Positions 1,670 to 25,647 of a DNA stretch of 27,465 nucleotides are shown here, one piece after another. The DNA is from a virus, in the IMG/VR virus record IMGVR_UViG_3300044530_001846, positions 1 to 27,465 of that record, one strand, 5' to 3'. The notes beneath the pieces are model-generated. The model did no database searches and was not told the origin of the DNA. It saw nothing but the letters and a program-made list of their open reading frames with translations. Both the position numbers and the translations under genes were made by a program. The stretch's first letter is position 1. Each line of letters begins with the position of its first letter.

Positions 1670-1675
1670 ACAACC

Positions 1676-1719: not shown

Positions 1720-1736
1720 CTTTAGCCTGACTAAAC
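1720..1736 (+). promoter_or_regulatory. 17-bp conserved motif, copy 2
   Basis: Exact copy of CTTTAGCCTGACTAAAC, two bases before the ATG at 1739. It opens the block that carries the primase-helicase. The motif could itself be read in frame as FSLTK from a farther upstream ATG, but the start just behind it agrees with all other copies. Confidence 0.75.
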
Positions 1737-1738
1737 CT

Positions 1739-4670: not shown

Positions 4671-4999
4671 CCGAACAAGAAGACGTCCTGCAAGAAGCCC
4701 TCCGCATCACCAGCGGCGACCGGCAAAACCAATACGGCCCTCCGAACAAGGACTTCGCCCGCACCGCCAAGATGTGGACCGCGCTGAAAGGCGTCGAGTT
4801 CGAGGCGCGTGACGTGGCGCTATTCCTCATCTGCCTGAAGCTGTCCCGCGAGACCCACCAAAGGAAAAGGGACAACGCGGTGGACATCGCCGGATACGCC
4901 CGTTGCCTCCACTTGTGCAACGAGTCGGCTCGGGTGAACCGCTCCGAACAACTCCAATCCTTTATCGACTCCATGAAACTTGATCCAAACAAATTATGA
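4667..4999 (+). CDS. DUF6378-family phage protein, 110 aa
   Basis: The ATG at 4667 overlaps the upstream stop. The protein has the signature I associate with DUF6378: ALRITSGDRQNQYGPP at 11-26, a W in KMWTAL, LKLSR at 57-61, and DNAVDIAGYARC at 69-80. This family is common in tailed-phage genomes next to replication or nucleotide-metabolism genes. Its activity is unknown to me; the conserved D, R and Y residues and helical fold make a nucleotide- or nucleic-acid-related role plausible. It overlaps the next gene by ATGA. The assignment to the family is from recalled pattern, not from a search. Confidence 0.85.
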   Translation: MTEQEDVLQEALRITSGDRQNQYGPPNKDFARTAKMWTALKGVEFEARDVALFLICLKLSRETHQRKRDNAVDIAGYARCLHLCNESARVNRSEQLQSFIDSMKLDPNKL

Positions 5000-5493
5000 A
5001 ATCAAAGACACACGCAATGGCGGAAGCCATCACCGCAGCCCTCGGCCCGATCTTCCACGCCAACCCCGACTACAAGACCATCACCGAAGCCATCGCGCTG
5101 ACCGTGGCGCGTGTCGCTCAGTCCACCCCAGACAAGGGTAACGAGGAAGAAGAGCTTGAAATCATCATGCAAATCGCAGCCAATGCCCTCAACGTATTCC
5201 TCAATGAAGAGCAAACCATCCAAGAAACCAAAGCCAAGGTCTTGGCTAAAGGAATTGATGGATTTGCAGAGATGTATGGACCCGTCAACGGACTCGCCGC
5301 CATCAACGGAGGCGTGTCACCCGAAGCCTGTGCGGAAGCCGAAGAGTTTGCTGGACAAGACCACTCCGAAGAAAGCTGGGCGAACAGTTCCATCCATCAA
5401 GAAATCGCCCGGTTTGAACAAGAGCATCCAGAGGTCAATAATGGATACGAGCCCGACCGCCACAACCCGGACGGAGCCAGAGCTTACCTATGA
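4996..5493 (+). CDS. Hypothetical protein, 165 aa
   Basis: Starts at the ATGA overlap with the DUF6378 gene. The N-terminal ~85 residues are predicted helical (MAEAITAALGPIF.., ITEAIALTVARVAQ.., MQIAANALNVFLNEEQ). Residues 86-165 are glycine-, alanine- and glutamate-rich and end in a polar DRHNPDGARAYL tail. No motif or family is recognised. Its last 53 bases overlap the first codons of the HNH gene at 5441. Inside it lies a 16-bp palindrome at 5232-5247, which I consider incidental. Confidence 0.8.
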   Translation: MKSKTHAMAEAITAALGPIFHANPDYKTITEAIALTVARVAQSTPDKGNEEEELEIIMQIAANALNVFLNEEQTIQETKAKVLAKGIDGFAEMYGPVNGLAAINGGVSPEACAEAEEFAGQDHSEESWANSSIHQEIARFEQEHPEVNNGYEPDRHNPDGARAYL

Positions 5494-5887
5494 GCGCCAC
5501 GAGGCACCAAGGAAGCGCCGCAGGCTGCCGACGGTCAGTGAGTCACGGAAAGCCCTCTCCGTGGCCTACAGGGCGTGCTACGAGGCTATACCGTCTCATC
5601 CTCAATGCCCGAGATGCGGGCTATCGCTCCCTAAAGATCAGCTTGAACGCCACCACCCGGCAGGCAGACGCAAAGCCGCCTTCCTATTTACGGTTCAAAC
5701 ATGCTCTCCGTGCCACCAATGGACCCACGCCCACCCCAAGGACGCCGAAGCCGTCGGTCTCTTATTGTCCGGTCGCAACTCCAAAATCCTCACCCTTGCC
5801 GCAGCAACTGAGCTGGTGGTAAGACAACGGTTTCCTGCCATGTATTCCATTGACATCCTGAAAGCCTTTAGCCTGACTAAACCATGA
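5441..5887 (+). CDS. Small HNH-type nuclease, 148 aa
   Basis: Residues 56-97 carry an HNH/zinc pattern: CPRCG (C56, C59), ERHHPAGRR (H71, H72), CSPCHQWTH (C88, C91, H92, H96). It is followed by a helical tail. This fits the small phage HNH proteins with two structural CxxC knuckles, probable DNA endonucleases. I place the start at ATG 5441, which has an AGAGGT Shine-Dalgarno-like run five bases upstream, the only clear one in this block. The same frame is open back to 5111, but that stretch is a shadow of the 165-aa gene. Base composition matches the phage, unlike the HNH/AP2 gene. The last codons (KAFSLTKP) are written by the third copy of the 17-bp motif, and the stop TGA at 5885-5887 overlaps the next ATG. 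Confidence 0.8.
   Translation: MDTSPTATTRTEPELTYERHEAPRKRRRLPTVSESRKALSVAYRACYEAIPSHPQCPRCGLSLPKDQLERHHPAGRRKAAFLFTVQTCSPCHQWTHAHPKDAEAVGLLLSGRNSKILTLAAATELVVRQRFPAMYSIDILKAFSLTKP
5850..5855 (+). promoter_or_regulatory. TTGACA hexamer, possible -35 element
   Basis: An exact TTGACA lies 11 bases before the TTTAG core of motif copy 3, the same spacing as at 129-134. It is inside the end of the small HNH gene. No convincing sigma70 -10 box follows, so this may be coincidence. Confidence 0.25.
5866..5882 (+). promoter_or_regulatory. 17-bp conserved motif, copy 3
   Basis: Exact copy of CTTTAGCCTGACTAAAC, one base before the ATG at 5884. It lies inside the last codons of the preceding HNH gene, so the DNA sequence is kept although it also encodes FSLTK. 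It heads the block 5884-7622. Confidence 0.75.
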
Positions 5888-6186
5888 ACCACGAATCCAT
5901 CAGCCTGCGAGTCAGCCACCTTGAGTTCCGCTGGTCCGACACCAACAAGAAATATGAGCTGCTGCGCTGGCACTCCCGTGACGAGGGCGGCGAGTTCTGC
6001 ACCGTCATAGCCTTCTTCCATTACCAGAACGAGGGGTTCGACATGCGCACCGTCGGACGGCGCTACGAGGAGGCGCTCCGCGAATGTCCGGACGCCGTCC
6101 AGATCACCACCCGCTACGCCTTCGACTTCCTGCAAGCCCGCTTCAACGCGGAAGAGTCGCTCAAAGAACTTAAACCTTGGATGTGA
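5884..6186 (+). CDS. Hypothetical protein, 100 aa
   Basis: The ATG is one base behind the third motif and overlaps the stop of the HNH gene. The first half is predicted beta-rich (SLRVSHLEFRW, YELLRWHS, FCTVIAFFHYQNEGF) and the second half helical (RRYEEALRECPDA...FLQARFNAEESLKEL). Compact and soluble, with no signal peptide. No family recognised. It is the first gene of the third block and abuts the next gene through TGATG, where one base is shared at 6186. Confidence 0.8.
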   Translation: MNHESISLRVSHLEFRWSDTNKKYELLRWHSRDEGGEFCTVIAFFHYQNEGFDMRTVGRRYEEALRECPDAVQITTRYAFDFLQARFNAEESLKELKPWM

Positions 6187-6386
6187 TGAAATACGAAGGA
6201 CCCCTCTACGGAAAGATCGGGAGACGCTACATCCCGCTCCGTCAAACCTCCGATGACGTGGACGCGATGGAACAGGCACTGGCTGCCGCCAAAGTGAAAC
6301 ATGAATTGATGCAGGTAGAGTTAAAGCAGCTCCTCCACGACCTTCGATTCAACCCACTCCAACTCAAAACCCACCCCACTACATGA
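6186..6386 (+). CDS. Small hypothetical protein, 66 aa
   Basis: I start it at ATG 6186, which shares a base with the upstream TGA. An in-frame TTG at 6177 is possible but less likely in a genome that couples genes through such overlaps. The sequence is a short beta-type N-terminus (YEGPLYGKIGRRYIPLR) followed by one long amphipathic helix with heptad character (DAMEQALAAAKVKHELMQVELKQLLHDL), perhaps a coiled coil. Function unknown. It overlaps the next ATG at 6383. Confidence 0.7.
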   Translation: MKYEGPLYGKIGRRYIPLRQTSDDVDAMEQALAAAKVKHELMQVELKQLLHDLRFNPLQLKTHPTT

Positions 6387-6649
6387 AACACCTCTTTATC
6401 GGCGGGCCGGTTGACGGCCAGCATTTCGAAACCCACGAAGCCCCCTACCACACGGTTGCCGTCGCTCCTTACCGCACCGTCACCTATGTCGATCCGCCTG
6501 ATGAAACGACGATCAGCGACTACGGCTACCACCGAGCCTACTACTTCGCCCACCGACTGCCGGGCAACGTGAAAGTTTACACACCGGAAGACTGGTCGAT
6601 TGACCAAGCCATCGCAACCCTCATCCGCAGATACCCCACATCCTTATGA
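6383..6649 (+). CDS. Small hypothetical phage protein, 88 aa (MKHLFIGGPVDGQ type)
   Basis: Starts at an ATGA overlap. It opens with MKHLFIGGPVDGQHFE, a pattern I recall from many unnamed small phage and bacterial proteins that begin with a beta strand and a GGPxDGQ turn. The middle is rich in Y, H and T, and the end is a short helix. Most likely a small beta-sheet domain. No catalytic residues can be assigned and no function is known to me. It overlaps the next gene at 6646. Confidence 0.75.
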   Translation: MKHLFIGGPVDGQHFETHEAPYHTVAVAPYRTVTYVDPPDETTISDYGYHRAYYFAHRLPGNVKVYTPEDWSIDQAIATLIRRYPTSL

Positions 6650-7155
6650 AATCTCCTGAAAACTGGTATCATGAAATGATGAAACATGGTGAAAAGGTCA
6701 TCACTTGGGGTGATTTCCAAGAACTTGTCGCTGAGATCCAGCGCGACGCCCTGTCCGACCCGATAGCTAAAACCACCGACCAGTTTAATTTTGAAATGAA
6801 TCAGTCAATCGCCCGCAACGAGCGCATCCGGGCCGACCAGCTTCACGACGAGCTGATGAAAACACGAGCTAAGTGGCACGAAGCCCGCAAGCACCTCCGC
6901 GCCGCCAACAAGGGGGCCGAACGCAACGCGCAAGCCCTCGCCCTCGCCACGACACGCTATTGGGACTACCGCGACTCCGACCGGAACGAAAAGCAGCGCG
7001 ACGAATACAAACACAAAACAGTCGTCTGGAACTGGCTGCTCATGTCGGACGACGAATACCGCCTGAAGTGCGGCGAGCTGTCGTCCCAAGACCTCCGCAA
7101 CATCCGGGCCGTGCTCAAGGCCATGCTCGGAACCTCTCTCCTCAAACACCTGTAA
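6646..7155 (+). CDS. Hypothetical helical protein, 169 aa
   Basis: Starts at an ATGA overlap. The sequence is strongly helical and charged; residues about 45-120 (NQSIARNERIRADQLHDELMKTRAKWHEARKHLR...) have coiled-coil character. It contains several tryptophans and a basic/acidic stretch DYRDSDRNEKQRDEYKHK. No membrane segment or known motif. It ends two bases before the ATG of the MazG-like gene. Function not recognised. Confidence 0.78.
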   Translation: MKSPENWYHEMMKHGEKVITWGDFQELVAEIQRDALSDPIAKTTDQFNFEMNQSIARNERIRADQLHDELMKTRAKWHEARKHLRAANKGAERNAQALALATTRYWDYRDSDRNEKQRDEYKHKTVVWNWLLMSDDEYRLKCGELSSQDLRNIRAVLKAMLGTSLLKHL

Positions 7156-7157
7156 CC

Positions 7158-7622
7158 ATGCCATTCCAACACGCCATCCAACTCCTCGAAAAAGAATCCA
7201 GCTACTGTCTCCGTGATTACACCGCGCTCGGTGAGGTTCCGTCCGACGAATGCGCGGCCAAGCTCCGCAAGCTCAACAACGCCATCACCTTCCTCAAGGT
7301 GGCCAACCTCGGAGGGACGTCCGCGCTGGTCTCGCAGGTCCGCCAGTGGGGGCAGGACCGCAACATCACCGGCCCCAACGCCAAGGCGACGGTCCACACC
7401 CAGTTCGAGAAGCTCCGCGAGGAGTTCTTGGAGCTGGAGGACGCCATCGCCCGCGAGGACCAGCACGAGCTCATCGACGCCATCGGTGACATGACGGTGG
7501 TGTTGATTTTGTTGTCGGAGCTGGCAGGGGTGAGGTTCGAGACCTGCCTTGTCGCCGCCTACGAAGAAATCCGCGACCGCAAGGGCTCCATGATTAACGG
7601 AGCGTTTGTCAAACAACTTTAA
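7158..7622 (+). CDS. MazG-like nucleoside triphosphate pyrophosphohydrolase
   Basis: Predicted all-alpha NTP pyrophosphatase that cleaves (d)NTPs to monophosphates. Phage members are thought to adjust host nucleotide or alarmone pools. The MazG-type metal site is visible as KLREEFLELED at 85-95 (E88, E89, E92) followed by ELIDAIGDM at 104-112 (E104, D107, D111), and the family's terminal AYEEIRDRKG is at 134-143. VRQWGQDR at 61-68 is also typical of the domain's first helix. The first ~55 residues are an extra helical part. I start it at ATG 7158, two bases after the upstream TAA, although the frame is open further up as a shadow. It is the last clear gene of the third block. Confidence 0.85.
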   Translation: MPFQHAIQLLEKESSYCLRDYTALGEVPSDECAAKLRKLNNAITFLKVANLGGTSALVSQVRQWGQDRNITGPNAKATVHTQFEKLREEFLELEDAIAREDQHELIDAIGDMTVVLILLSELAGVRFETCLVAAYEEIRDRKGSMINGAFVKQL

Positions 7623-7681
7623 CCAATTTTGCGCCGTGCCTGTGCAAGCCGAAGTAGCTCGCAACCCCGGATTGGGAATTC

Positions 7682-7730
7682 CCGACGAGGCAGTAGTGGT
7701 CGAAAAGCGCGTGGGGCAACTGCTCGTCGG
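7682..7730 (+). repeat. 12-bp inverted repeat (stem-loop) with one bulge
   Basis: CCGACGAG-g-CAGT at 7682-7694 pairs with ACTGCTCGTCGG at 7719-7730 across a 24-base loop. Twelve perfect pairs with a single bulged G are unlikely by chance in a gap of this size. It sits about 60 bases after the MazG-like stop and could be an RNA stem or a protein-binding dyad. Confidence 0.6.
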
Positions 7731-7854
7731 CAGGATCATGACCCTAAACCTGATCACTCACGCGGCGGCGCAATCCCCTCACGGACGTAAAGCCGGACTT
7801 GATCCGGACAACCGGACGAATGACCCGAAGGAGGTTCGAAACTCCGGAAGGCAA

Positions 7855-7877
7855 GGAGACTACGTGTAAGTGTCTCC
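7855..7877 (+). repeat. GGAGAC/GTCTCC stem-loop
   Basis: Six perfect G+C-rich pairs around an 11-base loop that contains the TAA of the alternative small frame. No T-run follows. It lies five bases before the next stem-loop (7883-7911), and together they resemble a tandem hairpin element closing the third gene block. Confidence 0.45.
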
Positions 7878-7882
7878 CGCTC

Positions 7883-7911
7883 TGCTCCACGGCGTAAATA
7901 CTGCTGGAGCA
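7883..7911 (+). terminator. TGCTCCA/TGGAGCA stem-loop abutting motif copy 4
   Basis: Seven perfect pairs with a 15-base loop, ending three bases before the 15-bp palindromic core. There is no U tract, so termination is not demonstrated. The arrangement of a hairpin followed by the 17-bp motif repeats that at 1676-1736, which suggests end-of-unit followed by start-of-unit. Confidence 0.4.
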
Positions 7912-7913
7912 CC

Positions 7914-7930
7914 CTTTAGCCTGACTAAAC
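7914..7930 (+). promoter_or_regulatory. 17-bp conserved motif, copy 4
   Basis: Exact copy of CTTTAGCCTGACTAAAC, four bases before the ATG at 7935. It follows a stem-loop and opens the block 7935-9526. Confidence 0.75.
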
Positions 7931-7934
7931 CACC

Positions 7935-8156
7935 ATGAACCGAGACGATCTCATCACCGAACTGTATGACCTACAGGCCCAGCTGACCCGTGGCTGTAGG
8001 ATGAACCACTGCATCATCAACCCGCCTACCGGCATGGCTCCCAACGGAGGGTGCCGCTGCACCAAGGACCAGATCAGCAGACGCCTGCGCCAACTGTCGG
8101 AAGACGTGATGGACATCAGGCGTGACAACTGGTTCCCACCCACCCAACAACCATGA
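7935..8156 (+). CDS. Small cysteine-containing phage protein, 73 aa
   Basis: The start lies four bases after the motif. Residues 21-42 contain four cysteines (C21, C26, C40, C42) around HCIINPPTGMAPNGGCRC. I recall an NPPxGM..NGGCRC pattern from many small phage proteins of unknown function. The rest is two amphipathic helices (LITELYDLQAQL and DQISRRLRQLSEDVMDIRR). The cysteines could bind zinc, but spacing CxC is unusual. It overlaps the next gene by ATGA. Confidence 0.78.
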   Translation: MNRDDLITELYDLQAQLTRGCRMNHCIINPPTGMAPNGGCRCTKDQISRRLRQLSEDVMDIRRDNWFPPTQQP

Positions 8157-8362
8157 TCATCCACCATCCCGACATCAAGGAAATCAACAAGTTCCTCACC
8201 CACGGCATCCGCCTGCTGCACCATCTTGAGAAGCAGACCGGCGAACACGCGAAGCACAACCTTGAGACATTCCGTCTTGAGCTCGGGGACGCGTGGCTCA
8301 AGATGGCCAACTCCCTGAGCAATCCAATCATCCAACTCGAAGAAACCGACCAACAACCATGA
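8153..8362 (+). CDS. Small helical hypothetical protein, 69 aa
   Basis: Starts at an ATGA overlap after CAACAACC, a leader type seen before several genes here. Predicted as two long helices (EINKFLTHGIRLLHHLEKQTGEHA and ETFRLELGDAWLKMANSL), with six histidines, no cysteines and no membrane segment. No family recognised. It overlaps the next gene at 8359. Confidence 0.72.
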   Translation: MIIHHPDIKEINKFLTHGIRLLHHLEKQTGEHAKHNLETFRLELGDAWLKMANSLSNPIIQLEETDQQP

Positions 8363-8916
8363 GTGCCAAGAAGACCGCCAAGAAGAAACCCGCCGCCAAG
8401 AAGGCCGCGAAGAAAGCCGCCAAAGTGATGGCCGACGTGATGGACTCCATCATCGAGGCCGTGGAGCCGATGACCACCTCCAGTCCCCACGAGATGGAAG
8501 TGTTCGACGAGGACGACTACAACCCCTACGCCCCGAACAATGACGGTGGTGGATGGGGCAAAGAGGAGCCAGCGTTCTCGTCGTTGGACGATGATGAGCC
8601 GTATCCAGAGCCGGAAGCTATCATCATGCCCCCTGACGAGCCGAAGCCGCAGCCTGTCCCCGTGGAGAGGCCGTCCTTGCCCGTCCCTGCACCCGTAGGA
8701 CGCGTCGTAACGCCTCCCGTGGCACCAAGTCCCACACCACCCCCCAACGAGCCCACAGGCGACGCCCTGATCGTCCACCGCCTCATCAACGGCATCAACC
8801 ACCTCTACAAGATTGCCCGCCTGACCAAGGGAGCCAAGGGACCACAACCCGAGCACGTCGCCCGCATCCAGACCAACATCCTCGCCGCCAAAGACCTCAT
8901 CACCCGCCTGTCGTGA
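8359..8916 (+). CDS. Protein with histone-H1-like Lys/Ala N-terminus, 185 aa
   Basis: Starts at an ATGA overlap after CAACAACC. Residues 1-24 are almost only K, A and P with AKK and KKAAK repeats, like the DNA-binding tails of bacterial histone H1-like proteins, so non-specific DNA or RNA binding is likely. Residues about 45-135 are a long acidic then proline-rich disordered linker (DEDDYNPYAP..., PVPVERPSLPVPAPVG...). Residues about 140-185 (DALIVHRLINGINHLYKIARL...IQTNILAAKDLITRL) form a short helical domain. Basic tail, acidic linker and helical end give a modular architecture, perhaps a DNA-compaction or recruiting protein. No closer family recognised. Confidence 0.78.
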   Translation: MSAKKTAKKKPAAKKAAKKAAKVMADVMDSIIEAVEPMTTSSPHEMEVFDEDDYNPYAPNNDGGGWGKEEPAFSSLDDDEPYPEPEAIIMPPDEPKPQPVPVERPSLPVPAPVGRVVTPPVAPSPTPPPNEPTGDALIVHRLINGINHLYKIARLTKGAKGPQPEHVARIQTNILAAKDLITRLS

Positions 8917-9200
8917 ACCGCCCCAAGCAACGCAAGAACAAGCGCCTGCTCGAACTGCTCGGCTGCGACCCCCACGAGGAAGTCCCCACCTTCGAGGAGG
9001 CTCGCGACTCGGTGCCACGGGAAGTGCTCCCAGAACGAATCATCTGCCCCGCCTCCGGCAAACATTCCTTCCCCTCACAAAGCACCGCCCGCCAAGCCGC
9101 CACCAACCGCATGAACAAGGGCTCGGGGACAGGCGCTGTCAGGCAGTATCTCTGCCCCGACTGCTCGATGTGGCACCTCTCGTCCTCCTTCCACCGCTAG
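8913..9200 (+). CDS. Small zinc-ribbon-like protein, 95 aa, GTG start
   Basis: I chose GTG 8913 because it overlaps the upstream TGA (GTGA), the usual coupling here, and no in-frame ATG precedes it. The N-terminus is basic (RPKQRKNKRLLELLG). Residues 45-88 hold CPASGKH, then YLCPDCSMWHLSS (C45, H51, C81, C84, H88), with a helix of the SxxxARQAATNRM type between them. This fits the small phage proteins with a CP..GK...A...A...YxCPxCxxWHL pattern, probably a single zinc site. Possible nucleic-acid binding; function unknown. Confidence 0.78.
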   Translation: MNRPKQRKNKRLLELLGCDPHEEVPTFEEARDSVPREVLPERIICPASGKHSFPSQSTARQAATNRMNKGSGTGAVRQYLCPDCSMWHLSSSFHR

Positions 9201-9202
9201 CC

Positions 9203-9526
9203 ATGCTCTACAACGAAGACCGTCAGAACGAAGCTGACGCCCGGATCGACCAGTGGATTGGAGCCCCTATTGCGATGGAGGAACTGAGACGCACCATTCT
9301 CCGCCACGTCTGCCACTGCTACCAACGCAACGACTGGCGCTGGCCGTGCAACCGTCACACCGTCTCGGACGAAGACGTGCTGGCGGCGGTCAACCACATC
9401 AAATCCCTAAGAGGATGGTGGTTCAACAAGACAACCAAGGACGCCGCCTTCCGCACCGCCCTGTATGAACAAGGGAAGGCCATCTACAAGCGCGAGGCTC
9501 CCGAACGACACGATTACCAAATTTAA
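9203..9526 (+). CDS. Hypothetical protein, 107 aa
   Basis: Starts at ATG 9203, two bases behind the upstream TAG. The same frame is open further up only as a shadow. Mostly helical, with several tryptophans (DWRWPC, GWWFNK), a CHCYQ element and a C-terminal helix. VSDEDVLAAVNHIKSLRGWWFNK could be a small nucleic-acid- or protein-binding unit, but nothing is diagnostic. It ends at TAA 9524-9526, one base before the fifth motif. Confidence 0.76.
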   Translation: MLYNEDRQNEADARIDQWIGAPIAMEELRRTILRHVCHCYQRNDWRWPCNRHTVSDEDVLAAVNHIKSLRGWWFNKTTKDAAFRTALYEQGKAIYKREAPERHDYQI

Positions 9527-9544: not shown

Positions 9545-9706
9545 ATGAAGAAAGAACTACAGGAAGCGGCCTTCACCCGTGAGATCGAGAGACGCATCGA
9601 CCAGCTCGCCACCGAGTTCGACCTGTCCTACTCGTTCGTCGTGGGGGCGCTCAGCCTGATCCTCCACGGGATCAAGCAGGAATACTTCGAGGACGATGAG
9701 GACTAG
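9545..9706 (+). CDS. 53-aa protein, ribbon-helix-helix-like, candidate regulator
   Basis: The ATG follows the fifth motif with no gap and the frame runs to TAG 9704-9706. The sequence reads as a short N-terminal strand or coil, then helix one (TREIERRIDQLATEFD), a turn (LSYS) and helix two (FVVGALSLILHGIKQE), with an acidic tail EDDED. That layout is like the helix-turn-helix half of small Arc/MetJ-type proteins, which bind palindromic DNA as dimers. The N-terminal strand is not clear, so this is a hypothesis. Being directly behind a palindromic motif would suit autoregulation. Its stop overlaps the stop of the giant gene on the other strand. Confidence 0.65.
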   Translation: MKKELQEAAFTREIERRIDQLATEFDLSYSFVVGALSLILHGIKQEYFEDDED

Positions 9707-12700
9707 GGCTCGTTCGCCCACACCGCTTCCTGAAGCACCTTCTTGGAGGACTGTCTTCCCTCACGGGTGGAGAATAGAATTTCCTGTGCGAGATAGAGCG
9801 AGATGTCGAAGGCGCTAACCTCGCCCGTCTCGTTCGCGTCGTAAGCCAAATTCATTCCGGCAACCAAGTCGTATAGCACCCCGGTCGGAGCGGTGAGCTG
9901 CATTGCCGTCTTGAGTCCGCTGCTCTCCATCTCCCACACGTTTACCGCGTCCTTGTCCCACTTGTTCTCCGCCGATTCCAGTCCGGTGAGCTTGGCCGTG
10001 GCCTCCTGCACCACACTGTTGGTGATGCTGTTCTTGAAGGCGCTTGCCACCGGGAACAACCCGAGCACCGCGCCAGCCACCGGAGCCACCGGCAATACCT
10101 CGCTCAACATCGAGCTGGCCAACCCGGCGTAAGCCGAAGCCGCCGCCGCGTCCGGGTCCTTCCAGTCTTGGAAGAACTGTCCGGGTTTGCCGATGGTCAT
10201 CGCCTTGATCCCTCCGAGAACCGCGTTGTCCTCTCCTTCCGTATTGAACAGGCTGTCTGCCTTCTCCTGAGCCTTGGCCATCGCCTCGTCCTCGTCGTCT
10301 CCGCCAAGCATGTAGCCGACCGACAACAGGATTGGAACGAGGTTTCGGATCTTCAGAGCGTGGAACAACGAGTTTTGCACCATCGTCCCGACAAGGTTCT
10401 CCACCGCGTTCTGGTGGGCACGCTTTCCGCCGTCGGTCATTTGTCCGCCAATGTCCTCACCCGCTTCGTTGAGCGTTCCTATCTCGTGACGTTCGGCCTG
10501 CCATAACGTGGGGGCCATAGCACTCATGTTACTGGCGGTGGACGCCTGATGGTTCGAAAACCGGACAATCGAGCGCATCAACGCGTTCCATGTCGGAGAG
10601 CTGGTCTTGTTCTGGAAGAAGAACGACTTCTTCGCCTTGTCCGAAACCCCCATGTGGTCATTAAGCTTTGTTTGAGCGGCTTCCACCGCTTCCTGCGGGA
10701 TGTCGAAACGTCCCTTGTTCTCCGCCTTGATCATCTCTGTGATGGAGCTTGGCACCTCCCCGTCAATCAGACCCCTTGACTTCATCCATTGGAGCTCGGC
10801 CATCAACTCGGTGAGGAAGATGGCGCGTGACAACCAGCGTTCCGGCTTGGCGATGGTCAAATCCAAAGCCTTTTCCTGCCACTCCTGAGTGACCTTCGCC
10901 GCCTTGCCGGAATACTTCTTCACATTACCCACACCGTGACGGGTCTGGTTGCGCAGATTGGTCTTCACTTGGTCCATTCCGTCCGCACCACGGAAACTCG
11001 ACCACGGAGCAACCCGCAGCATAAACTCCTTGGCGTCGTGGTTGTAGTCGCCGGGCTCGTTCTTGTCGAACGACTTGGAAGTGACGATCTGGCCCATCGC
11101 CTCGAACATCATCCCCGCCTCGTTCCATTTCCCTGAAAGCAGCTTTTTCGCGCCGTAACCCAGAAGCGAAGGAGCCGACTGGTTCCACCATTGTTGGAAC
11201 GAAGCCAGCGCCTTGAAGATATACATCGACGACAGGAACTGAATGCTTTCGGAAAACGCCGTGTCGGTCACCCCGTGCTGCATGTCGTTGGCGATTTCAT
11301 TGTCGAACTCGGAAGCGATGCCCGCCAGCGCCACCCGTTGCAAACGCTTGTCCGCATTCTGCTCGTCCTCCCCAAGAATCAGTGAATTGACGATCTCGGC
11401 TTGGTTTGGACCCGCCTGCTGGACGCTTCCGACAATGTTCCGCAACGAACTGTAGACTGGCGTGACGTTCAACCGGTAGAGCGTGTCGTCAAGCATTCCC
11501 TCAATCGCGGAAATCCCGTTCAAACTCACAGGACGGAACACCAACGTCTTCTTGTTCTTGTCACGCTTCTCGGTGCGTCCCGGACCACCCAGCAATGACA
11601 TCTCTTGGAACCCGACCTCATGCAAAGGATCGGCCTTGTAAGGCGTCACTTCCAGACTGAGACGTTCCGCAGACGGATCGGTGGCGTAAGCATACCGCAA
11701 TGGGACAGTCGAGATCAAACGGGCTTGGCCATGCAGTCTTCCCGCAAGGAACGCCTCGGACGGATTAATGTCCTCAATCTCTTTCTGGTCGTGACCCATC
11801 GCCATCATCATGATTTCAGCCGCGTCGGTCATGCCCTTGAACTTGTCACCGATGTAGTCGGCGTAGTCCTTGGCGGCATCCATCACTCCTGACTCTTCCG
11901 ACTTCGCGTAAAGCCTCTCGATGGCCTCGTTGATCTGCTGCACCGCATAGGCCTCCTTGTCACCTTTCGGGACAAACGGAGAGTCAACGATGTCCTCAAT
12001 GATGGAGTAGAGCTCCTTCACCATGTTCTCGTCGCGAATGACGTTGATGTGGTCGTCGTTGAAAAACCCTTTCACACCACCCGCCGCCTTTTTCAAGGCC
12101 CCGTCCGTCACCTTGCTGTGACTTGCGAGCTGGGCGTCGCGATACAAGGACAAGTCCTTCACCCCTTTCTTCAGGTCGTTCGACCACATCGAGAAGTTGG
12201 CGGCGACCGAGTAGGTCCTGACTCTCTTCAATCCTTCCAAACTGGCGATCATGTAAGGAATCGACTGCATCAAGGAGTCGTTCCCAAGCGCCAGATGCTT
12301 CTTGGCCATCACCTTCTTCTCAGCTTCCAGCTGGGAAATCCAGCCGTTGCGGCCCGAGTTCATGTCGAAACCGTTCTGGAGGATACCGTGGAGACGCATC
12401 GCCTCAAGCTGGGCGAGGTAGTTTTTCCGGTAACGAATCCGGACGCGAGAGTCGTGGTGGTTCAAATACTTCATCGCCGTCAGTTCGGCGGTGCTCAGGT
12501 TGGTGGACAACCCGGTCAACAGCTGTTGCAAAGCGGCCTCCCCCTCGATCCTCGCGCTCATCCGCTCGAACAATTCGAACAGGCGGACCTGCTGGGCGGT
12601 GTTGTCGCTTTGAACAATGCTGTCGTCACCGAGCATCTCAAGGAACTTTGCGATGTCCTCCTTGAGTCCGCGTTGGTTGGTCTCCGTGCTGGGCGAGAGC

Positions 12701-15700
12701 TTGTCGTAACCAATGACCAGCGCCTCCACCATGTGGGACAACTGACTCAACGCGTTCTTCATGTCAACATGCTCAACGTCCACCTTCTTGTCCGCCGCCA
12801 GCTTGAAACCAGCCACCTTGTCACCCGGACGGGCGTTGGCTCGGGCGATCAAAAGCTCCGCGTGACGACCGGAATACTCCTTGGCCACCTGTTCACGGGT
12901 GGTTCCAGAAGGGGTGAACCTCGCTCCACCAAACGCATGGGTCCATGTCCCGTCTTTCCATTCACGGGTGAAGCCCATCCGGTTCTTGGTCTGGGGTTGG
13001 GGCGTTGGTTCGTCGGTGTCGGGAAGAGAGTTGAGGACGACGTCGCGCATCGTGATCTTCTTGCCTTTGCGCTTGGCGGTCTTCTCCGCAGGGGTGAGCT
13101 CGCTGTTGGAATGGTAGCGGTTCTTCAGGTCCTGCTCGGCGTTGATCTGACCCAGCATGATCCACTCACCGTTGTTGATGAGATGGCCGATGATGTCCTT
13201 GCGGGCGGCGAAGTTGGACGGCACCTTGTATTTGGAGACTCGGCGGGCTGCGTTTAGCCGGGCTAAATCAGCCTGAAGACTCTTGATCTTGTTCCGGTTT
13301 CCGGCAATCGGATGCTTGAACAACTCCTTGTCGGCGAGCTTGGTCTCAATGGCTTTGATCTGGTTGTTGATAACCTCAAGATTACCTCTCAGACCACTCC
13401 GGAACTTCGGATCAACCGACAGCTTCACCAGACGGGTCTTTTCGTTCTGAAGCGAAACCATCTTCTCAAGCATTGGAGCGGCACGCTCTGCCTCGGTCTG
13501 ACGCTGGGCCAGCTCGTCCCTCACCTTCATCGCTTCGACCACGTTGCTCGTGGAATAGATGCTGTGGACTCCGGGCTCCGCCAGCAAGGCGATGGCGTCA
13601 GGACTCAGTTGGGAACCCGATCCGGTCACTCCCCCGAAGTTGTTCTTGAACTCGGTCAGACGCGCCTCGGCGATCCTCTCCTGCAACGTGAGCGTGTCGC
13701 TCACCTGACGGATAATCGCCGCTGGGTTATAGTCGTTGAAGTAAGCTTGGTCGCCCTTCACCGCACGGTAGAGCTCGTCGGCATGACGGGCGTATTGACC
13801 GAGCGACTTGGTCAGAGCCTCTTTCATAATGTAGAACTCGTGGTCCTTCTCTCCTTCCGGCGTGGCGTTCCACTTGGCTGCAAGCTGGGCAAGACCCGCC
13901 TCAATCCCCATCTTGTTCTCGAAGTTGGGGGTGGTTCCGGCAGGGTAGAGGACGATGGTGGCGTTCACCGATTCGGTGCGTCCGGTCGGTCCTTTCTCAC
14001 CGGAGATGAAGACGTGGCGACCCGCCGACCACGGGGTGACCGAGCTGTGGGCGAGACGCTGGAAGAACCCTCCCTTCAATGGATTGCGGTCGATACGGAC
14101 CAGACCAGCCAACTCCTTGTTTGCCAGTTCGACATTCTGGCGAGCGACACGCAACTTGTTCATTTCCGACGCATCCAAAACCTTGCCACGCTCCGCGATC
14201 TCCATCTTGAGACTTGACGAAAGCTGCATCTCGTTGAGCAGGGCTCTGGTGTTCTTCTGGCGGTTGGGACGGACCTTGGAATCGTTTTCCAATGAGTCGA
14301 ACTTCTCGTTCAATTCCCGAACCAACGTCTTTGCCGCAGCTTCCTTGCCGAACGTGCTGATCTCGCCGATGGTTTGATTGAGCAGCTTCTGGTAACCGCT
14401 GCGGTTGGGCGCGAGCTTGGCCGGAAGGTTCGAACGGTAGATCGCGTCAGCCTCCGACAGCACGTGCTGGAGAATCATCTCACGTTGAGCCTCATCAATA
14501 AGGTTGATTGACTGCGAGTTGAACAAGTCAGGCGTCGCCGCCATCACGGCTTCAATCCGGTCGACCTCCGATTGGTTGAACGCAATCCGGTCTTCGATAA
14601 ACGCCTTCCGGTCCTTCATCGCCTGAAGCTCGCGGCGGGCCTCTGCCTCATGGCCTTCCAGCATTGGAAACACATTTTTCATCTCGGCGTAGACTTCGGG
14701 CGTCAAGGCCATGTCGGCGAAGGCGCGTGGGTAGATGACAAGCTTGTCCTGCCCCTTGCCGTTGTCGACCCAAGCTTGGGTTCCTTGGTCAATGGAACGC
14801 TGGGCTTCCTTGCGGATCACCGACTCAACACCGGAGACACGGGAAAGAAGACCGCCGGAGAACGATTTGAACCGGTTGCTCTCGTGGTGAAGCGTGGACG
14901 CGGTGCGTCCGTTGATCCGTCCTTCCATCATGTTGTGCCATGCGGTGACAACAGGGACTCCCTCACGGCCCGGAAGCCTGCTCTCCTGTGTCCGGCGAAG
15001 CCCCTTGGGGGTGTTCTGTCTGACGACGGGACGCGCCTGCGGACTGGTGGACTCGCTGAGAAGTTGTGTTCCCGGAGTTGGCCGTCTCGAAGCCATCCCC
15101 TCCATCTGGGTTCTGGCGTCAAACCGCATCGACTCATGCTCCTTGGCAAGACCGATCAGGTCGACAAAGAGGTTGATCATCATCGCGTCGCTCGCTGGCA
15201 GGCTTTCTCCGTTCCATGCCGGGTCCTCAAACCCACCACGTCCACGGTGAAACTCCTCCAACACCGCCTCCATCCGCTTGTCCATCACCCCATACTCAGA
15301 GATGTCGTGGTTCTTGTTGCGGAGATACTGGAGGATGCTGGAAACCGACGGCTCGACGGAACGAAGCAACTCCTTGTCCTCGTTCGACGGCTCGATGTCC
15401 AACTCGACTTCCTGACGTTCGGTGGAGTCGACGCGGCTGGCGAGGAACTTCTCAAGCTCCGACTCCATCCAGCTCTTCTCCACATCGTCAGCCGCCTGCT
15501 CTTCGGCCAGATCCGAATCCTCGTCGGTTTGAGGCGTGGCCTTGGTTTCCATCGCGTTGTCGAAGGCGTATGGGTCCTGTTCCTCCACCGCGTCCTCGCC
15601 CATCTGCTTGTTTGCCAGAAGGATTTCATTGAGGGTGGCGTTGGACAAGTCGCTTGATTTCAATAGGTTGTCTCCGAAAAGGAAGCGGTCCAGAAGCTTC

Positions 15701-18700
15701 TTCATGTTCGGATTGGTCATGGCCTGAGCGACCAGCATCGCGTCGGTGATGATGTTCTGCTGTCCTTTAAGACCCGAGAGATCAGTCTTCCCGTCGAAAG
15801 AAGCTGACTGAAGTGTATCGGTCGACTCGACAAATCCTTTCTCACCCATCCGGTCAAACAAGTCATCCCTATCAAAAGCACGGACGGTCGAAAGGGTCCC
15901 GTTTTTCATCAATCCTTCTGAACGAGACAGAGCTCCAAGATTCTCCATCGTGGCGAAGTGCTCACGGAGGAGACCAGACAGGATTTCAACTTCCGTTTCC
16001 TTGGCCGCTTCGTCCATCGCCGCCAGTTTTTCGGGGTTCTGTTCAAGCAGCGACATCGAATAGTCACCGAGCATTTTGCTCACTGCATCCGTATTGCCCT
16101 TGTGAGCCCTCATGAAGCGCTCGATGTGGGTTATGGGACTGAGTGCCACACGAATCCTTTCAGCGGCTTCCTGAAGCACGGGGGCGACCAATGCAGCCGA
16201 CTCTGACTGTGTCCCCCACCACGCAAGCGCCTGAGACACCATCGCCTCGTTGTCGGCGGAGTTGGAACCCTCGGCGGCGTAAAGCACCGGAGGGTTGCCG
16301 TCGACACCGGGAAGGAACCGTGAACCAAAGTAGGCTTGGTTCTTGTCGATTTCGCTCTTGCTCGCCCGGTAGACCAAGACACCCGGAATGTTCTGTGTGA
16401 GAAGATTGACGGCCTTGTTGGCGGAGACGAAGCCCGTTTCATTGTATTGGGCGAAGACGTTGCCCCGATGGAGGTTGATGGCCTTGTTGCCACGGCTCTC
16501 CGACTGGAGCATGAGCGCGATCTTGTTCGACTCCTCCTGTGAGGCGAAGCCATTGCCCTTGCGCGGAGCGAACAAATCACCCATCCCGAGCTCTGCCATC
16601 TTGGACGCTGTCGCGGCGAAACTCGTCTTGATTGATTCGGAGTCCTTGGCGAAAACAGCCCCCTGCGCGGACTCGTTGTCGTTCGTCGCGGACAACGCAT
16701 ATCCCACCACCGTCCGGATGGCCGTCAACAACTCCTTGTTCGAATCGTTGCCATTGCCGTTCGCCTCCACCACGCGGGCTTGGTCGATGATCTCCATCTC
16801 GCTCTTGGCCTTGAACTCGATCAACGACTCCATCAATTCAAACGGGTTGATCTCAGTGGCAACGCTTTTCCGTGTGTCCGATGGCACAACCCCCATGCGG
16901 GTGACCGTCCGTGTTTTGGTGACGGTGCGCGTGGTGGCTGCGCCGGGAGCGTTCTGGGCGTTGATCCGCGCAGTTTCCTTCTCCCACTTTGCCAGCGCCT
17001 CTTGATGGATGGCGTCTCCGAACATATCGAAACTACCCTGAACCGGCTTGATTGGAAGAACCTCTTTCGGAATCACCTCATCATCCTCATAGCTTTCCTC
17101 CTGCTGGATTTCCTCGACTCCACGGCTGGAAGCGTAGTTGTGATACATTTCGACCAACGGAGACAGTTCGCTTTCCTTGGTGACGCCGAATAAGCCACGA
17201 ATAGCCTTCCGGATGAAAGCATCATAACCTCTCGGATCGTCCTCCAGTGCGACAAGATCGCGGAGGAACTGACGGGGAGCGTCGGCAGCCGACTCGTTCG
17301 AAGAAAGAAGTCCGCCATCCAAGTTTAGCCCGACTAAAAGGGCGGCTTCAGTCAGACGCTTATTCTGAAGCTGGCGCTGAAGGTCGGTGGTCACCTGTGC
17401 TCTCTGTGCTTTTGACCGCCTTGAGTCCTCGCTGGCGCGTCCATCACGGGTCTCCTGCACCGTGCTGCCCTGCGTCCCCATCTGGGAAGCGAGAGGGAAG
17501 TTGCCGGAGTTGTCCTTGTCGGCGATGGCGTAGGCGATGGCCTCGCTCGGGTCCATGTCGACGTGGATCTGCTTGCGGACCACGAGCATCTCGCCGTTGG
17601 AATCGAGCTGGACCTTTGGTTGTCTCACTGGAACCAAGCGTCGCGTCTCAACCCCGTTGACGGCTTCCGTTCTGTAAGTGACTGCCACCGGCATCCCGGC
17701 TTGGTAATCTGGATGAGACGACGAAACCAGCTCGGTGAACTCCTGACCGTTCTTCCCAACCGACCTCTTCTCAAACATCTCCTCAAACACCACGTCCCCC
17801 TTGGAGTCCCGTTCAAACACAGGGACGTCAGACCAAACCCAGTTCGGACCGCCCACCACCAACTCACCGTCCTCTTTCGAGAACGAGATACGGCGGAACT
17901 TCTCGTAAAGGTCGATGCCGAAAGTGGCGCTGATCGCTGAAGTCCTGCTCTTGGCGAAGTAGTTGATGTTCCACAATCCGTTGTGAAGCGTCGGGTAGTC
18001 GATGTGGCTCTTGCGTGCCTGCTCGAAGAAGTCGGAGTAGGCCACCATTCCGGCGTCACGGCTCGTCTGGGTGACCTCGCGGGTGACGTTCGGACGACTG
18101 CGGACAAACCGCTTCACCGCACCCCGCGCCCAACGGGCCTCGTTGCGAAGTGACCGGACAGACGCATCCAGCACCTGATGGCTCTGAGAGTTGTAAATCG
18201 CGCTGATGGATTCAGCGAGCGCCTTGCCAGACAAGCCGGAGCTGACGACGTCGAAGTGAAGCTTGAGGAACCGTGCTTCCTGCTCGTTGATCAGTTGGAG
18301 GGCCTCTGTCGCACGCTGATGAATCCGTGACGACAGTCGTCCGGCCAAAGTCTGCATTCCTCCGATATTCCCAAGGATCTTCTTGGGGTCGGTGGACTCC
18401 TGAAGCTTGGTCGCCCAGTTGCGGAGCTTCTGGAAATAATCCGCAAAGGTCTCTTCATCATACTCCGTGGTTGAGGAAATGGTAGCTTGATTGACTCGGG
18501 CGGTCTCCCCGGAATCGTGTTTGATCATCTCCGGAATACCGGCGCTGTCAAAAAACGCCTGACGCGTCATGCTCTTCAAGCGGGTCTTGCCGTTGAGGAA
18601 GTCAATGAAGTATTTCCCATAAGGGATGTTCGGAAGGATGGACTCCAGCTCCTCGTAGGTGGTGGCGTTGAACTCGTCGTTCTCGATGGGTGGAGTGTTG

Positions 18701-21700
18701 AATCCAAAGCTTCCCTCGTAGCGTTGAGCCAGCTCCTCGTTGACTCCGATCTCGGTCAACATCTTTTGCCACTGCATCTGGTAATTCGTCCCGATTGCGG
18801 CCATGTTGCTGGCGACGTGGCGATTGAGGAGGACGTCTTTGGCCGTGGCATTGCGCTCCAGCGTGAACACCTTGCTCTTGTCATAGGGCTTCTCGACCAT
18901 CGACATGCCGTCGGAGGAAGGAACCATCTCCGGAATGAACGGGACGCCGGGGCGGTCGACATGGTAACGGAGACGGTCCGCTCCGTCCTTGTTCAACACT
19001 TGGAAGATCGCGGGATAGTAGTTGACCCCGTAGGATGATTCGGAATCGGAAGTCGGCATGATGTCGTCAAGACCCTGTTCCGGGTCAAAGAACAACGGGC
19101 GACCGTCCATCTTCGCCTTCACGTAGGCCTCCATCTCCTCGGCGTCTCTGGCGTCGAACTTGGCGTAGACCAAGCTCTGGAACCGAAGACCGAAGTTGGT
19201 GCTGTCCAAGGACTCGGAACCAAGGACCAAGTCCACCACCCGGCGGTTGGTCTCGTTGTATTGGTCGAGCGCCTGCATGTAGGCGTTGAACTTGACCATC
19301 TCCTCCTCGGCGAACGGCTTGTTGATCGCCGCCTCAGCCCGCAACCGACGCGCCTTGAGCAGGGCCTGACTGCCGTCCGAACGGCTCTCACCCGACAAAT
19401 ACATTTCGATTTCCTTGGCCGTGTTTAGCTTGGCTAAAGACTCCTGCTGCTCATCCGTGAGGTTGGCGCGTCCAATCCGCTCCTGTTGTTCCTCGGTCAT
19501 TACCGCCAGCTTGAACGCGGCGAGATCCTCCTGAAGATTCAGGCGCTTGGTGTTTTCGAGGTTGGTTGGCTTTGTGTTTGGGAAGAGGATGGATTGGATT
19601 GGAAGCAAGGCGTTGCTGCCAAGCAACAGGCTCTTCCCTTCCAACAACGCGTCATCGTCCATCGCCATGTCGGCGGCGTGACGGCGCAAACCACGTAACC
19701 ATTCCTGCTTCGACAAGGAAGGAAGCTCCTCACTTGCTGCTTGGGTCTCAACAACCACCTCGTCAAACATCGGGGGTCCTTGATCGGGCTTGAGGAATTG
19801 ATTTCCCGTCTTGACCCACTTGCCTTCAACCATTCTCCATCCAGCCCTCACCGATTCAACAGTGAGCATCTGCCGCCTTTCCGTAATGCGGGGGCGAGCC
19901 GGAATATTATCTGAAACATCTTCGTTGATAGTCAAACCAAACCCAAGTTCATTCGCCACCTTATTCGCAGTGATGATGTCTCTCAGGTTACGCAAATCTA
20001 GTCGCTCCAACGCTTGAAGTATGTCCACGTTGGCGTTGTGGAGGGTGATGCGGTCGGCGTTGACCATCGCGGCAAGCTCGTCCTCCTTCTGCTTGATGAA
20101 GCGCGAGCCGTTGTCCATCAACGGAGCCGACGCCACGAGCCGGGACCACACCTTGAGCTTGTCCGGTTCCGAGCCTTCCTCCAAGACCGACAGGAAGTTG
20201 GGGGTGTTGGCCCGAGCCCATTCCAGTTGCTGCCAAGCGTAACCCAAGTCCCGTTGCACCAAGGACAACGCACCCTCCTCGTTCAAATCACCCAGAGCCT
20301 TGTCCAGATCGTCAAGGTCGGTGCCGGGGTAGTAGCGACCGATCATCCCGCGAACGTCCAAACCGTCCTTGTCTTCAGACGTCCGGAGACGGATGGCTCC
20401 CTGCTTGTAGTCCAACACGATCATGTCGTCCAAAGACATCCCGAGCTTCCCGGCGATGTCGCGGATCTCCACCATCACCTCGTTGTGCTTCATCGCCACC
20501 GAACCGATGGCCTTCTTGGTCATCTCCCGCGACCGCTGGAATCGCTCCACCGCCTCCTCCAGCCCCTTCTCCTTGATCTGGTCGACGTCGCCGCGCAGGT
20601 TGGCTTTGACGTAGGCCGTCTCCTGCTGGCGGATCATCCGGTTCAGCGAGGTTGGAAGCTGGCCCATCATGTAACGGAGGTGGGCCATCCGCTTGATCTT
20701 CTGCATGTAGCGCTTGAGAAGCTCCACCACGGTCTTCCACGGGTTGCTGGTCTCATTGTTCGAGAAGTCCTCGTTGAGGGCGATGAGCAGGCGCTTGGAG
20801 TCGGTGGTTTGTTGTTCGGTGCTGACGCCGCTGGTGAGGATCTGGTTGAGAGCGCGGAGGGTTTCCGAGGCGACCAAATACTTGTCCGCGTCGTCGAAGT
20901 CCTCGATCTTCTTGCCATTCACCCGTTGGGCGGCAACCCGTTGGAACACGTCGTTGACGAAGCGTTGCCTGACGTTGCCGCCCTTGTCCAAGTCTTCGGA
21001 CAGCTCCACGAAGTCGGAGAACGAATTGATGATCTCCTCGTCGGTGAATTCCTGCATCGCCACGAAGTGGGTTTGCTCCTCGTCCACGAACGCCGCGATC
21101 TGACGGGCGACTTCGTTGGAGACGAAGGAATCGTAAAGCTCTCCTCGGGTGGAGTCGTAGCCCTTGAAGATGCTGCGGAGGTTGGCGACGAACGCGTCCT
21201 TGTCCAAGTCCATGGACAGCTTGTCTCCATCACGTTTGACGTTGAAGAAAAACCCCTTCTCCATCTTTGCTCCCCAGTTGATCGCCGCCGGGTTGCTGCC
21301 GGGAGCCACCACCTGAAGCACGTTCTCGATCATCTTGCGGAAGGCCGCAGGATCAATCGGTCCCTTCCCAAGCAGGTCCTTGAGCATCGGCTCGATGGCC
21401 TTGCCCGCTTCCGTGAGGCGGTTGCGGTTCCAGTTGGAGTTGAGCTTGCCGAGAAGGACCGTGTCGTTCTTCCGCATCGCGTCGCCAATCACCTTCACGT
21501 CGATCTGGCGGAAGTAGTAGACGCCGTCGGCCTCTTCAGTGAGGACAAGGACGTGGTCAGGATCGCCTGCGATCTCCACAACCGCGTTCACCCCGATGGG
21601 GAGAGTCTTGCCCTTGGCGGGCTTGTAGTAAATCTGGCTCTTGTCGTCCTTCGACCACACCCCGCCAAACTCGTCCTCCACGTCCATTGTTGACAAGTCG

Positions 21701-24700
21701 ACGTAGAACTTCGGCGTGGACGGATCGAGGAACAACGGGTCCTCCTCACCGGGCCTGTCGTTGGCCGTGTCTGGCTGGGCGTCAAGGACGTTGGTTGGCT
21801 TCTCTTTGAACTTGCGAACCGCCTTGCGGACGTCGGCTGCATTCTTGATCTCGGACTCGGAGATCAACAGGACACGCTGGTTCGCGGGAATTCCGTACTC
21901 CTCGCGGGCGGACGTCTCGTCATCCCCGACAACCACCGCCACGCCATCGTCCCACAGCTCCTGAAGCGCCTCGTCCACCATCGCCGCCTTCTGGTGAGGC
22001 TTGCGTCCAAGGACGTCCCTGACGGCGGCTGGAGCTTCCGGAGTTGTTTCTTCGGAAGCTCCTTCGGTCAGCACATCCCCTTCGTCTTCGGCTTGGGCTT
22101 CGTCGTCGGTTTCGGTTTGGTCTTCATCGGTTGGTGGTGTTTGTTTTTCGTCTTCTACCGCCGGAGTGGCGGAGGGAGCTTCTTTAGCCGGGCTAAAATC
22201 CGTGATGGCGCGGATCTTAGAGACGGATGCGCCATTGATCTTCTTTCCTCCAACCTCGATAACCGCATTGGCGGCATCCGAGTCGTAACCGGAGAACGTG
22301 CCTTCTACGACCTCACCGCTGGAGCGGACATATGAAATCTTTTGTCCAGCTTTGAAGAGGGGTTTGTTGTTCGCATCATCCCACTTCCCTTCCTTCTTGA
22401 GGCGAGACACCGCCGCACCGCGATGGTGGTTGATGCTTCCTGAAATTGGCGTTGTGGCATGAACCGCAAGCTCGTCCTCGCTCATCACCTCGACGTCTAG
22501 CTCTGCTTGCTTGACTGGACTGACGACAGGTGCCACAGGCTCTGCGCTTGGTGTCTTGAGAGGTGTGCCAGCACCTGTAGTTTGGCTATTGCCGCCTCCT
22601 TGGGCGCTTGAAGGATTTCCCACACCTTTTTCGCCGGGAGTGGGGACTTTTGGATCAGCTCTTGTATCTGTTCTGCTTTGGATCGGTCTTGCATAGTTGG
22701 TGGTTTGAGAAGAATCGAAATTGCCGAAGCTCTTGAGCATCCCCTTGCGGATTTTCGCCTCGGAACCGAGAGCCTTCATCGGGCTGATCGGGTCAGCCGC
22801 CTTGAGTTGTGCCGTCGCCTCGGATGGAGACAACACCTTGGTCTCGCCCTTGGAGTTGGTCAGCACCGCGCCCATCGACGTCTCTCCCTTGACCGCGACG
22901 CTCTTCATCGTGAACGTCTCTCCGCCAACCGTGAAGTTGTGCGTGAGGTCGCGCTTCGGATCGCGCATCTCCGGGTTCCACTCCATGTCGTTTCCGTCCT
23001 TGTCCTTCGGTGCCGGACCCAAATGGTCGGTCATTTCCTGAGCATGGACGGTCTTGGGGTCAGGAGGGGTGTTCCTTGCCTTCTCCTGCGCCTTCTGGGC
23101 GCGTTCAACGGGAGTCGTGGCACTTGGCTCCAGACGGCGGGCAAAGCCGCTCACGGCGTGCTGTGAGAGCACCTTGGCCCGCTTCTCCACCGGGATGGAT
23201 TCATCGGCCATGTAGTTGGCCACCGAAACCACCGGAGCTCCGGACGCCGCCTTGATCCCCAGCATCTCCGCAGACGCATCACTGTTGTTTTCCTTGATGT
23301 CCTTCCAGATCACCTCGGCAAACTCCTTGATCTCACGGACGCGGGTGTCCCGGTTCTTCTTGCGGAAGGCTCCAGCCGTCTCAACGACCATCCCTCCACT
23401 CTCACCCAACCCGCCACCGAACGCACCCATCACGCCCGCCGCCATATACTCACTGAACTTGTCACCGATGTTGTCCCAAACCTCGCCCTTCCACGTCTTG
23501 GAATCGTCGAGCACGGCGAGGAACACGTCGGACAGCGCGGTGTCGAAGGTTTCCTCCATGAACTCGGCACCCATTCCAACCGCAGGGCCGTAGCCTTTCA
23601 GACCGTTGGCGCGGGCGGCGCGGTTGATGGTCTCGCGCAGCGCGGGTGCCAGCGCCTTGCGTAGCTCGGAACCTTCCGCCGCCAATCCCTCAAGGGTCTC
23701 GATAGCCGCCTTCTGAGCGTCTTGAGAAACAGCGCTCTTCATCGCCTTGTTGAACTTGAGATGCTTGAAAATTGACCCGCTGAGCCCGCCCTCGACACCG
23801 CTCATGCCTTTTTCAAGACCCGGAGCAATCCGGTTGAACGCGGCGGTCGCGATGAACGCGGCGGCTCCGTCTGCCAATCCCTTCATTCCCGCCTGATGAT
23901 ACGCCTCCTCGGCGTCACCGGTCTTGTCAAAAACCTGATTGTAGGTGGAGCCGAAGGACATCCCTCCGGCCTGCAACGCGCCGATGTAGGCGGAAGGGTC
24001 CTTGATCGCCTTGATACCGAAATTCTTCAGCGTGTTCGGAGCAAGCTCGGTCATCGCCTGCTTCATCGCCTTCTCGGAAATCGTGATCTGCCTGCCCATC
24101 GCTGTGGCGGCTCCTGTGCCCTGCAACGCGCCAACTCCCTTGAGTCCGAGACCGCCGCCGATGACACCACCTACAATTCCTCCAACCATCTCGCCCGTGT
24201 CACCACCGACGGCTTCACCAAGTTCGGAGCCAAGATAACCACCCGCTGTTCCTCCTGCCACAACACCGACACTTTTCGCCCCGGCAACCGCCACGCCACG
24301 GGCCGCGCCAGCCATGGTCAGCCCCTTGATCCCGCCCTTCACCAGTCCGCCAGCTCCAAAGGTGGTCATCATCGACGCAACCTGTCCGGCCATGTCATAA
24401 ATCCCCTTGTTGGTGAAATCCATTCCAAGCACCTTGTAGTGCTCCGTGCCGCCCATGCCCTCGAAAGCATTGTCACCCACGCGAGACGAGTCCGCCGCGT
24501 ATTGGGTGATGGCGTCGTTACCTCCAAAGAAAGAAGCTCCAAGCAACGCAGCTCCGGCACCCGTCGAACGGTTGGCCGACCAGAACGCGTTGTTCAACTT
24601 GTCGAGCATCCCATACTGGTCCTTGTCGAAAAGCTCCGGGTTCTGCTCGATGAACGAATACATGTCGCCTCCCGGCGCGTCCATGTGCCTTTGGAACTTG

Positions 24701-25647: not shown

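Follow-up and report, generated by a model that had tools for sequence, protein, structure and literature searches.

An uncultured phage clade encodes giant, cysteine-poor candidate ejection proteins with an exchangeable cargo slot

More than half of the 27,465-bp virus record analyzed here (the window) is occupied by a single gene, which raises the question of what a phage protein of 5,314 amino acids is and where it acts. The open reading frame (positions 9703 to 25647, minus strand) starts with ATG and runs through 5,314 codons with no internal stop, and its codon-position GC is of the coding type and even from end to end. Since homologous frames of 4,652 to 5,977 aa are found in other IMG/VR contigs, this is not a chance frame, and the uninterrupted protein of the preliminary description is real. 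Its size, described as exceeding that of the N4 virion RNA polymerase, indeed does so but has precedents: the P23-45 tape measure (5,002 aa; PMC10770324), BcepIL02 gp70 (4,667 aa), and its own family, with a maximum of 5,977 aa. A near-identical contig, IMGVR_UViG_3300042892_003562 (73,925 bp; here G001), encodes a giant of 5,486 aa with a 442-aa protein B and a 535-aa protein A directly upstream; the genes of G001 were called by a simple codon-usage script instead of a standard gene finder. We consider it likely that this uncultured clade of phages, probably short-tailed ones, has three internal virion (ejection) proteins and that the giant is the largest of them, and we infer its ejection from synteny in relatives, the absence of cysteine, and the types of cargo encoded by its homologues.

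On the opposite strand, early genes (window positions 1 to 9526, plus strand) converge on the giant, among them a primase-helicase (2563 to 4422), a DUF6378 protein (4541 to 4999), and a MazG-like protein (6873 to 7622), all on the plus strand. G001 additionally encodes an Erf annealing protein and an exonuclease, and no RNA or DNA polymerase was recognized among the genes scanned. Just before the primase-helicase lies an HNH endonuclease gene (2064 to 2570, plus strand; PF13392; PHROG E value, 5e-64); the matching stretch is missing from G001, which indicates a recent insertion or loss.

The giant belongs to a previously unrecognized protein family. Relatives were reached through the neighboring putative portal, which led to 43 related IMG/VR loci, several of them on contigs of 67 to 80 kb; a C-terminal alignment then picked up the giant in eight portal-linked contigs, as an open frame in seven and a cut one in the eighth. 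Including the window and G001, the family counts ten homologues. Full-length frames (4,652 to 5,977 aa) are present in nine, and the tenth has a 1,722-aa frame cut by the contig end. All ten frames are uninterrupted, with first-ATG choices as start codons of the homologues, and the contigs that carry them are those of uncultured phages (67 to 80 kb). Pairwise block identities are mostly 19 to 53%, and conservation is concentrated in aa 1 to 900, 1320 to 1860, and 4130 to 5314, with a variable middle and a hypervariable stretch at aa 960 to 1320 that takes up insertions of up to several hundred amino acids.

Outside this family, pieces of the window giant gave no convincing match in Pfam, PHROG, and NCBIfam scans, and an Rfam scan returned nothing. 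Tblastn searches with aa 1 to 1000, 901 to 3800, and 4501 to 5314 found no match among 50,697 phage records, and GTDB genome scans with the giant C terminus and the portal were equally empty and so give no hint of a host or a prophage. PDB searches with sequence profiles built from the N, M, and C parts gave nothing, or chance EF-hand matches at an E value of 0.04. The putative portal itself (L008:5950 to 8268, minus strand) matches nothing in PHROGs, Pfam, PDB sequences, or the 50,697 phage records searched by tblastn, and the clade of 43 loci that it defines is an unnamed phage group. At the same locus (L008:10110 to 11006, minus strand), the terminase large subunit contains an intein (Intein_splicing match), within whose coding sequence an HNH homing-endonuclease gene runs antisense (L008:10214 to 10948, plus strand; PHROG HNH E value, 9e-27). 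This antisense gene shows 63 to 100% identity, with the sense frame open, in 8 of 8 relatives checked (L012, L014, L032, L038, L039, L040, L051, and L055), while other relatives are without the intein.

The gene order adaptor, A, B, giant is found in all relatives with upstream ORFs listed, the locus of one homologue (G016) ending inside the module. In the window, protein B (25669 to 26997, minus strand) has 442 aa and no cysteine, and proteins of 455 to 488 aa, likewise without cysteine, occupy this position in the relatives examined. The gene that had been described as encoding a short membrane-type protein proved to be a window-edge fragment, namely the last 146 aa (27024 to 27464, minus strand; zero cysteines) of protein A, which is complete in G001 (42134 to 43741; 535 aa). 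Adaptor and portal are named from position and size only, the portal having no library match, and the strongly divergent proteins A and B were identified partly via similarity and partly via position and size. As is typical of podoviral ejection proteins, A, B, and the giant are encoded by consecutive late genes that follow the head and adaptor genes, with the largest last.

All three proteins of this module are nearly devoid of cysteine, an empirical trait set up here and not a published criterion. In G001, the giant, B, and A contain no cysteine in 6,463 aa, against 1.06% in the other called genes. Proteins A and B lack it in all seven assembled sequences of each (3,661 and 3,296 aa in total), and the giants of the family contain four cysteines in 49,407 aa. 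Two of these four belong to TIGR02594/CHAP domains, where each is the PWC residue, the expected catalytic nucleophile of this fold. No other residue is depleted nearly as strongly as cysteine, the next being tryptophan (0.56×), threonine (0.69×), and histidine (0.73×).

Known ejection proteins display the same pattern. In a panel of T7, SP6, phiKMV, P22, N4 (gp50 in part), and LUZ7, they contain 1 cysteine in 16,354 aa, compared with 116 in 18,887 aa of other late proteins (Fisher P value of 2e-30, with residues treated as independent). Two out-of-sample giants, BcepIL02 gp70 (4,667 aa) and DC1 gp16 (4,650 aa), are free of cysteine, as is BcepIL02 gp69; the comparison thus spans six phages plus two (L074 to L081, BcepIL02 and DC1 included) and is not a survey. 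An exception is BcepIL02 gp63, annotated as an internal virion protein, with 4 cysteines: either the rule is not absolute or the label is loose. The crAss001 proteins gp46, gp47, and gp45 have 0, 1, and 2 cysteines, respectively. Cysteine goes unmentioned in a review of ejection proteins (PMC8954989), and we found no statement of such a rule in the openly accessible literature, subscription papers being outside the search.

Comparison of the two near-identical phages exposes a second trait of the giant. Outside aa ~983 to 2000, the window and G001 genes differ at 10 nucleotides in ~12.9 kb (99.9% identical); inside, three in-frame swaps replace segments with nonhomologous ones. In exchange slot A (aa 995 to 1149; 22201 to 22665, minus strand), the window segment is exchanged for 279 aa in G001. 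At site B (aa 1459 to 1480; 21208 to 21273, minus strand) the counterpart has 118 aa, and at site C (aa 1876 to 1985; 19693 to 20022, minus strand) it has 63 unrelated amino acids. The swaps could in principle be an assembly error of metagenomic contigs; against this, frames are open across all swap junctions, and independent contigs vary at this place too.

Several of the exchanged segments are enzymes by profile. The 279-aa segment of G001 is a PD-(D/E)XK nuclease (PHROG exonuclease E value, 2e-12; Cas4-like, 3e-9) with the motifs GTAFHAEVE, GMVDGLI, LVDTKT, and QMKAY. The slot of homologue G021 carries a related nuclease (PHROG exonuclease E value, 2e-14) and, in addition, a TIGR02594 hydrolase (E value of 1.5e-19, above the cut-off), so that one giant holds more than one effector enzyme. 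A TIGR02594 hydrolase is also found in the slot of G020 (E value of 6.6e-17, below the cut-off; Pfam CHAP, 5e-5), and the hydrolase cargo matches PHROG tail lysozymes at E values of 5e-21 and 1e-18. The slots of G016 and G018 contain the HExxH motifs HEMGH and HEVIH (chance expectation, 0.01 to 0.05 per shuffled protein), and these cassettes are probable metalloproteases, with weak library matches (SprT-like E value, 0.001; phrog, 0.002). In the window, G013, and G017, the slot at aa ~960 to 1300 holds short modules only, and the profile libraries recognized no enzyme in that of the window. The enzymes that had been suspected inside the giant are therefore a feature of the family, with none recognized in the window slot. 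The hydrolase segments of G020 and G021 are 50% identical while their giant backbones are 24 to 34% identical, a pattern that mobile cassettes or stronger constraint on them would produce. Separately, G016 (L061/L062) and G017 (L063/L064) share near-identical slot linkers on giant backbones that are 20 to 34% identical. The adaptor proteins of these two also have almost equal scores against G001, and together this suggests recombination between lineages.

Around the slot, the conserved N-terminal region (aa 1 to 960; 22768 to 25647, minus strand) is most conserved at aa 540 to 780 (mean identity, 31 to 49%). It includes the stretch previously described as glycine-zipper-like, which is indeed a glycine-rich hydrophobic segment (aa 487 to 508; 24124 to 24189, minus strand) but no family trait, homologue coverage of aa 481 to 540 averaging 0.35; a glycine zipper as a membrane device was dropped on this ground. 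Of the further sequence features noted at the outset, the acidic linkers are confirmed (aa ~1164 to 1205; 22033 to 22158, minus strand), and the C-terminal hydrophobicity resolves into one strong stretch (aa 5176 to 5205; 10033 to 10122, minus strand).

The fold search suggested in the preliminary description covered the C terminus and the conserved region M1 (aa 1295 to 1905; 19933 to 21765, minus strand). The M1 AF2 model (pLDDT 71, pTM 0.50) has no match below an E value of 0.001 in the viral fold library and no convincing fold match; its invariant residues in the homologue alignment (E1523, E1524, H1527, R1575, E1595, R1598, and Q1602) look like an active or metal site. The conserved C-terminal region (aa 4130 to 5314; 9706 to 13260, minus strand) is modeled as 1,185 all-helical residues (pLDDT 63, pTM 0.57). 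In the Foldseek viral library it matches large phage proteins at E values down to 5e-8, with low TM scores (~0.3), several of them named "large polyvalent protein associated domain." Only at an E value of 0.06 does it match a putative internal core protein, and the PDB holds no match.

Taken together, the giant is most likely an ejected polyvalent protein, with conserved ends for delivery and a slot for cargo. Proteins A and B and the giant would be packed in the head and leave it with the DNA or ahead of it, and the conserved N- and C-terminal parts may form, or dock to, a core or trans-envelope conduit. The slot after aa ~960 and the smaller sites at ~1459 and ~1876 would hold exchangeable cargo destined for periplasm or cytoplasm: a peptidoglycan hydrolase could open the wall, a nuclease or metalloprotease could act on envelope, host, or defense targets, and the window giant would carry small modules alone. 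Such a chain would have to be at least partly unfolded to thread a narrow channel and cross the oxidizing periplasm, which may be why cysteine was purged, an active-site cysteine being the main tolerated exception. The DNA-ejection machine proposed earlier from gene order thus gains support from that order in relatives, from the absence of cysteine in the giant and its two upstream neighbors, and from the hydrolase in two homologues.

Other readings account for parts of these observations. The giant could be the tail tape measure of a long-tailed phage, possibly an enzyme-bearing one like that of P23-45, which provides a size precedent (PMC10770324). The M1 model does match tape measures weakly in Foldseek (E value of 0.026 and worse). 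Tape measures can carry hydrolases too. However, three consecutive cysteine-free proteins lie in the order of an N4- or T7-like ejection module, no long-tail assembly genes were recognized among the genes scanned, and the top C-terminal fold matches are large polyvalent-type proteins, which makes a tape measure unlikely. That the giant is a non-virion polyprotein or late nonstructural protein we regard as very unlikely: it is syntenic with late genes, shares its cysteine purge with proven ejection proteins, and has peptidoglycan hydrolase cassettes in its family.

Two more specific identities were considered. A diverged N4-type virion RNA polymerase would fit the position of the gene, which like N4 gp50 follows two cysteine-free proteins and is itself cysteine-free. 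Yet hhalign comparison of six regions with the N4 gp50 and LUZ7 virion RNA polymerases found no similarity and the motif-B pattern R...K......YG is absent, leaving this highly improbable; an RNA_pol Pfam search of eight genomes was also empty but is disregarded, its positive control being equally silent. An antirestriction protein of the DarB type (a methylase-helicase), such as Bcep22-like phages have, would match in similar size, in a terminal position among the late genes, in lack of cysteine, and in being virion borne in JC1. With no DPPY/NPPY-type methylase motif or Walker A in the window copy and no profile similarity to the Bcep giants, there is little reason to believe in such an identity. 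An ejected protein with exchangeable cargo stays our preferred reading.

We lean, with some reserve, toward a broader proposal: that this new ejected family is a delivery chassis whose effector slot is swapped among near-identical phages, and that cysteine purging is a general signature of ejected phage proteins, legible from sequence alone, with active-site cysteines as the main exception. The family would supply virion-protein candidates of ~5,000 to 6,000 aa with natural cargo swaps, which allow delivered effectors to be compared against a constant delivery backbone. If upheld more widely, the cysteine signature would make ejected proteins and hidden effectors recognizable in uncultured phages, and it makes the crossing of the envelope by giant proteins, unfolded and through an oxidizing periplasm, directly testable.

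Among known systems, polyvalent proteins (Iyer et al. 2017, PMC5512222) are very large, virion linked, and multidomain. Their genes lie next to late genes, and their enzymatic domains vary, with HExxH metallopeptidases and domains that cleave peptidoglycan among them. The giant resembles them as a large multidomain protein among virion genes, exceeding 2,000 aa and, at the family level, bearing several effector enzymes. The C-terminal model matches several phage proteins named after polyvalent-associated domains, at low TM scores. The giant differs in that its backbone forms a separate family, for which the suggested check against the polyvalent domains of Pfam gave no match by sequence (an LPD38 search was empty, its positive control silent too), and in that the nuclease and TIGR02594 cassettes of this family occupy a defined slot at which near-identical phages differ. 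The DarB-like giants of Bcep22-like phages (Lessievirus), BcepIL02 gp70 and JC1 gp69, are of similar format, with 4,500 to 4,670 aa, genes that are among the last of the late region, no cysteine in BcepIL02 and DC1, and a ~530-aa virion protein upstream (cysteine-free in BcepIL02); the JC1 homologue has been detected in virions by mass spectrometry (PMC9144972). They show no profile similarity to the giant, and DarB-type motifs were not found in the window copy.

Profile comparison also found no similarity of the giant to N4 gp50, T7 gp15 and gp16, P22 gp16 and gp20, BcepIL02 gp70, or crAss001 gp47; the comparison with N4 gp50 and T7 gp16 had been proposed as a check. For the T7, P22, and N4 ejection proteins this is not decisive, since such proteins diverge strongly. 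The N4 module gp52-gp51-gp50 shares the three-gene order, the cysteine-free chain, and a genome of ~70 kb; it differs in its polymerase, in size (3.5 against 5.3 kaa), and in its small partners. The T7 core of gp14, gp15, and gp16 likewise consists of three consecutive, nearly cysteine-free internal proteins with the largest last. In T7 this largest protein bears an envelope-active enzyme, as it does here in G020 and G021, but at a fixed place instead of in an exchange slot, and the giant is four times larger. Despite the lack of detectable kinship to any of them, we propose that the giant works like N4 gp50 to gp52, T7 gp14 to gp16, and the Bcep giants.
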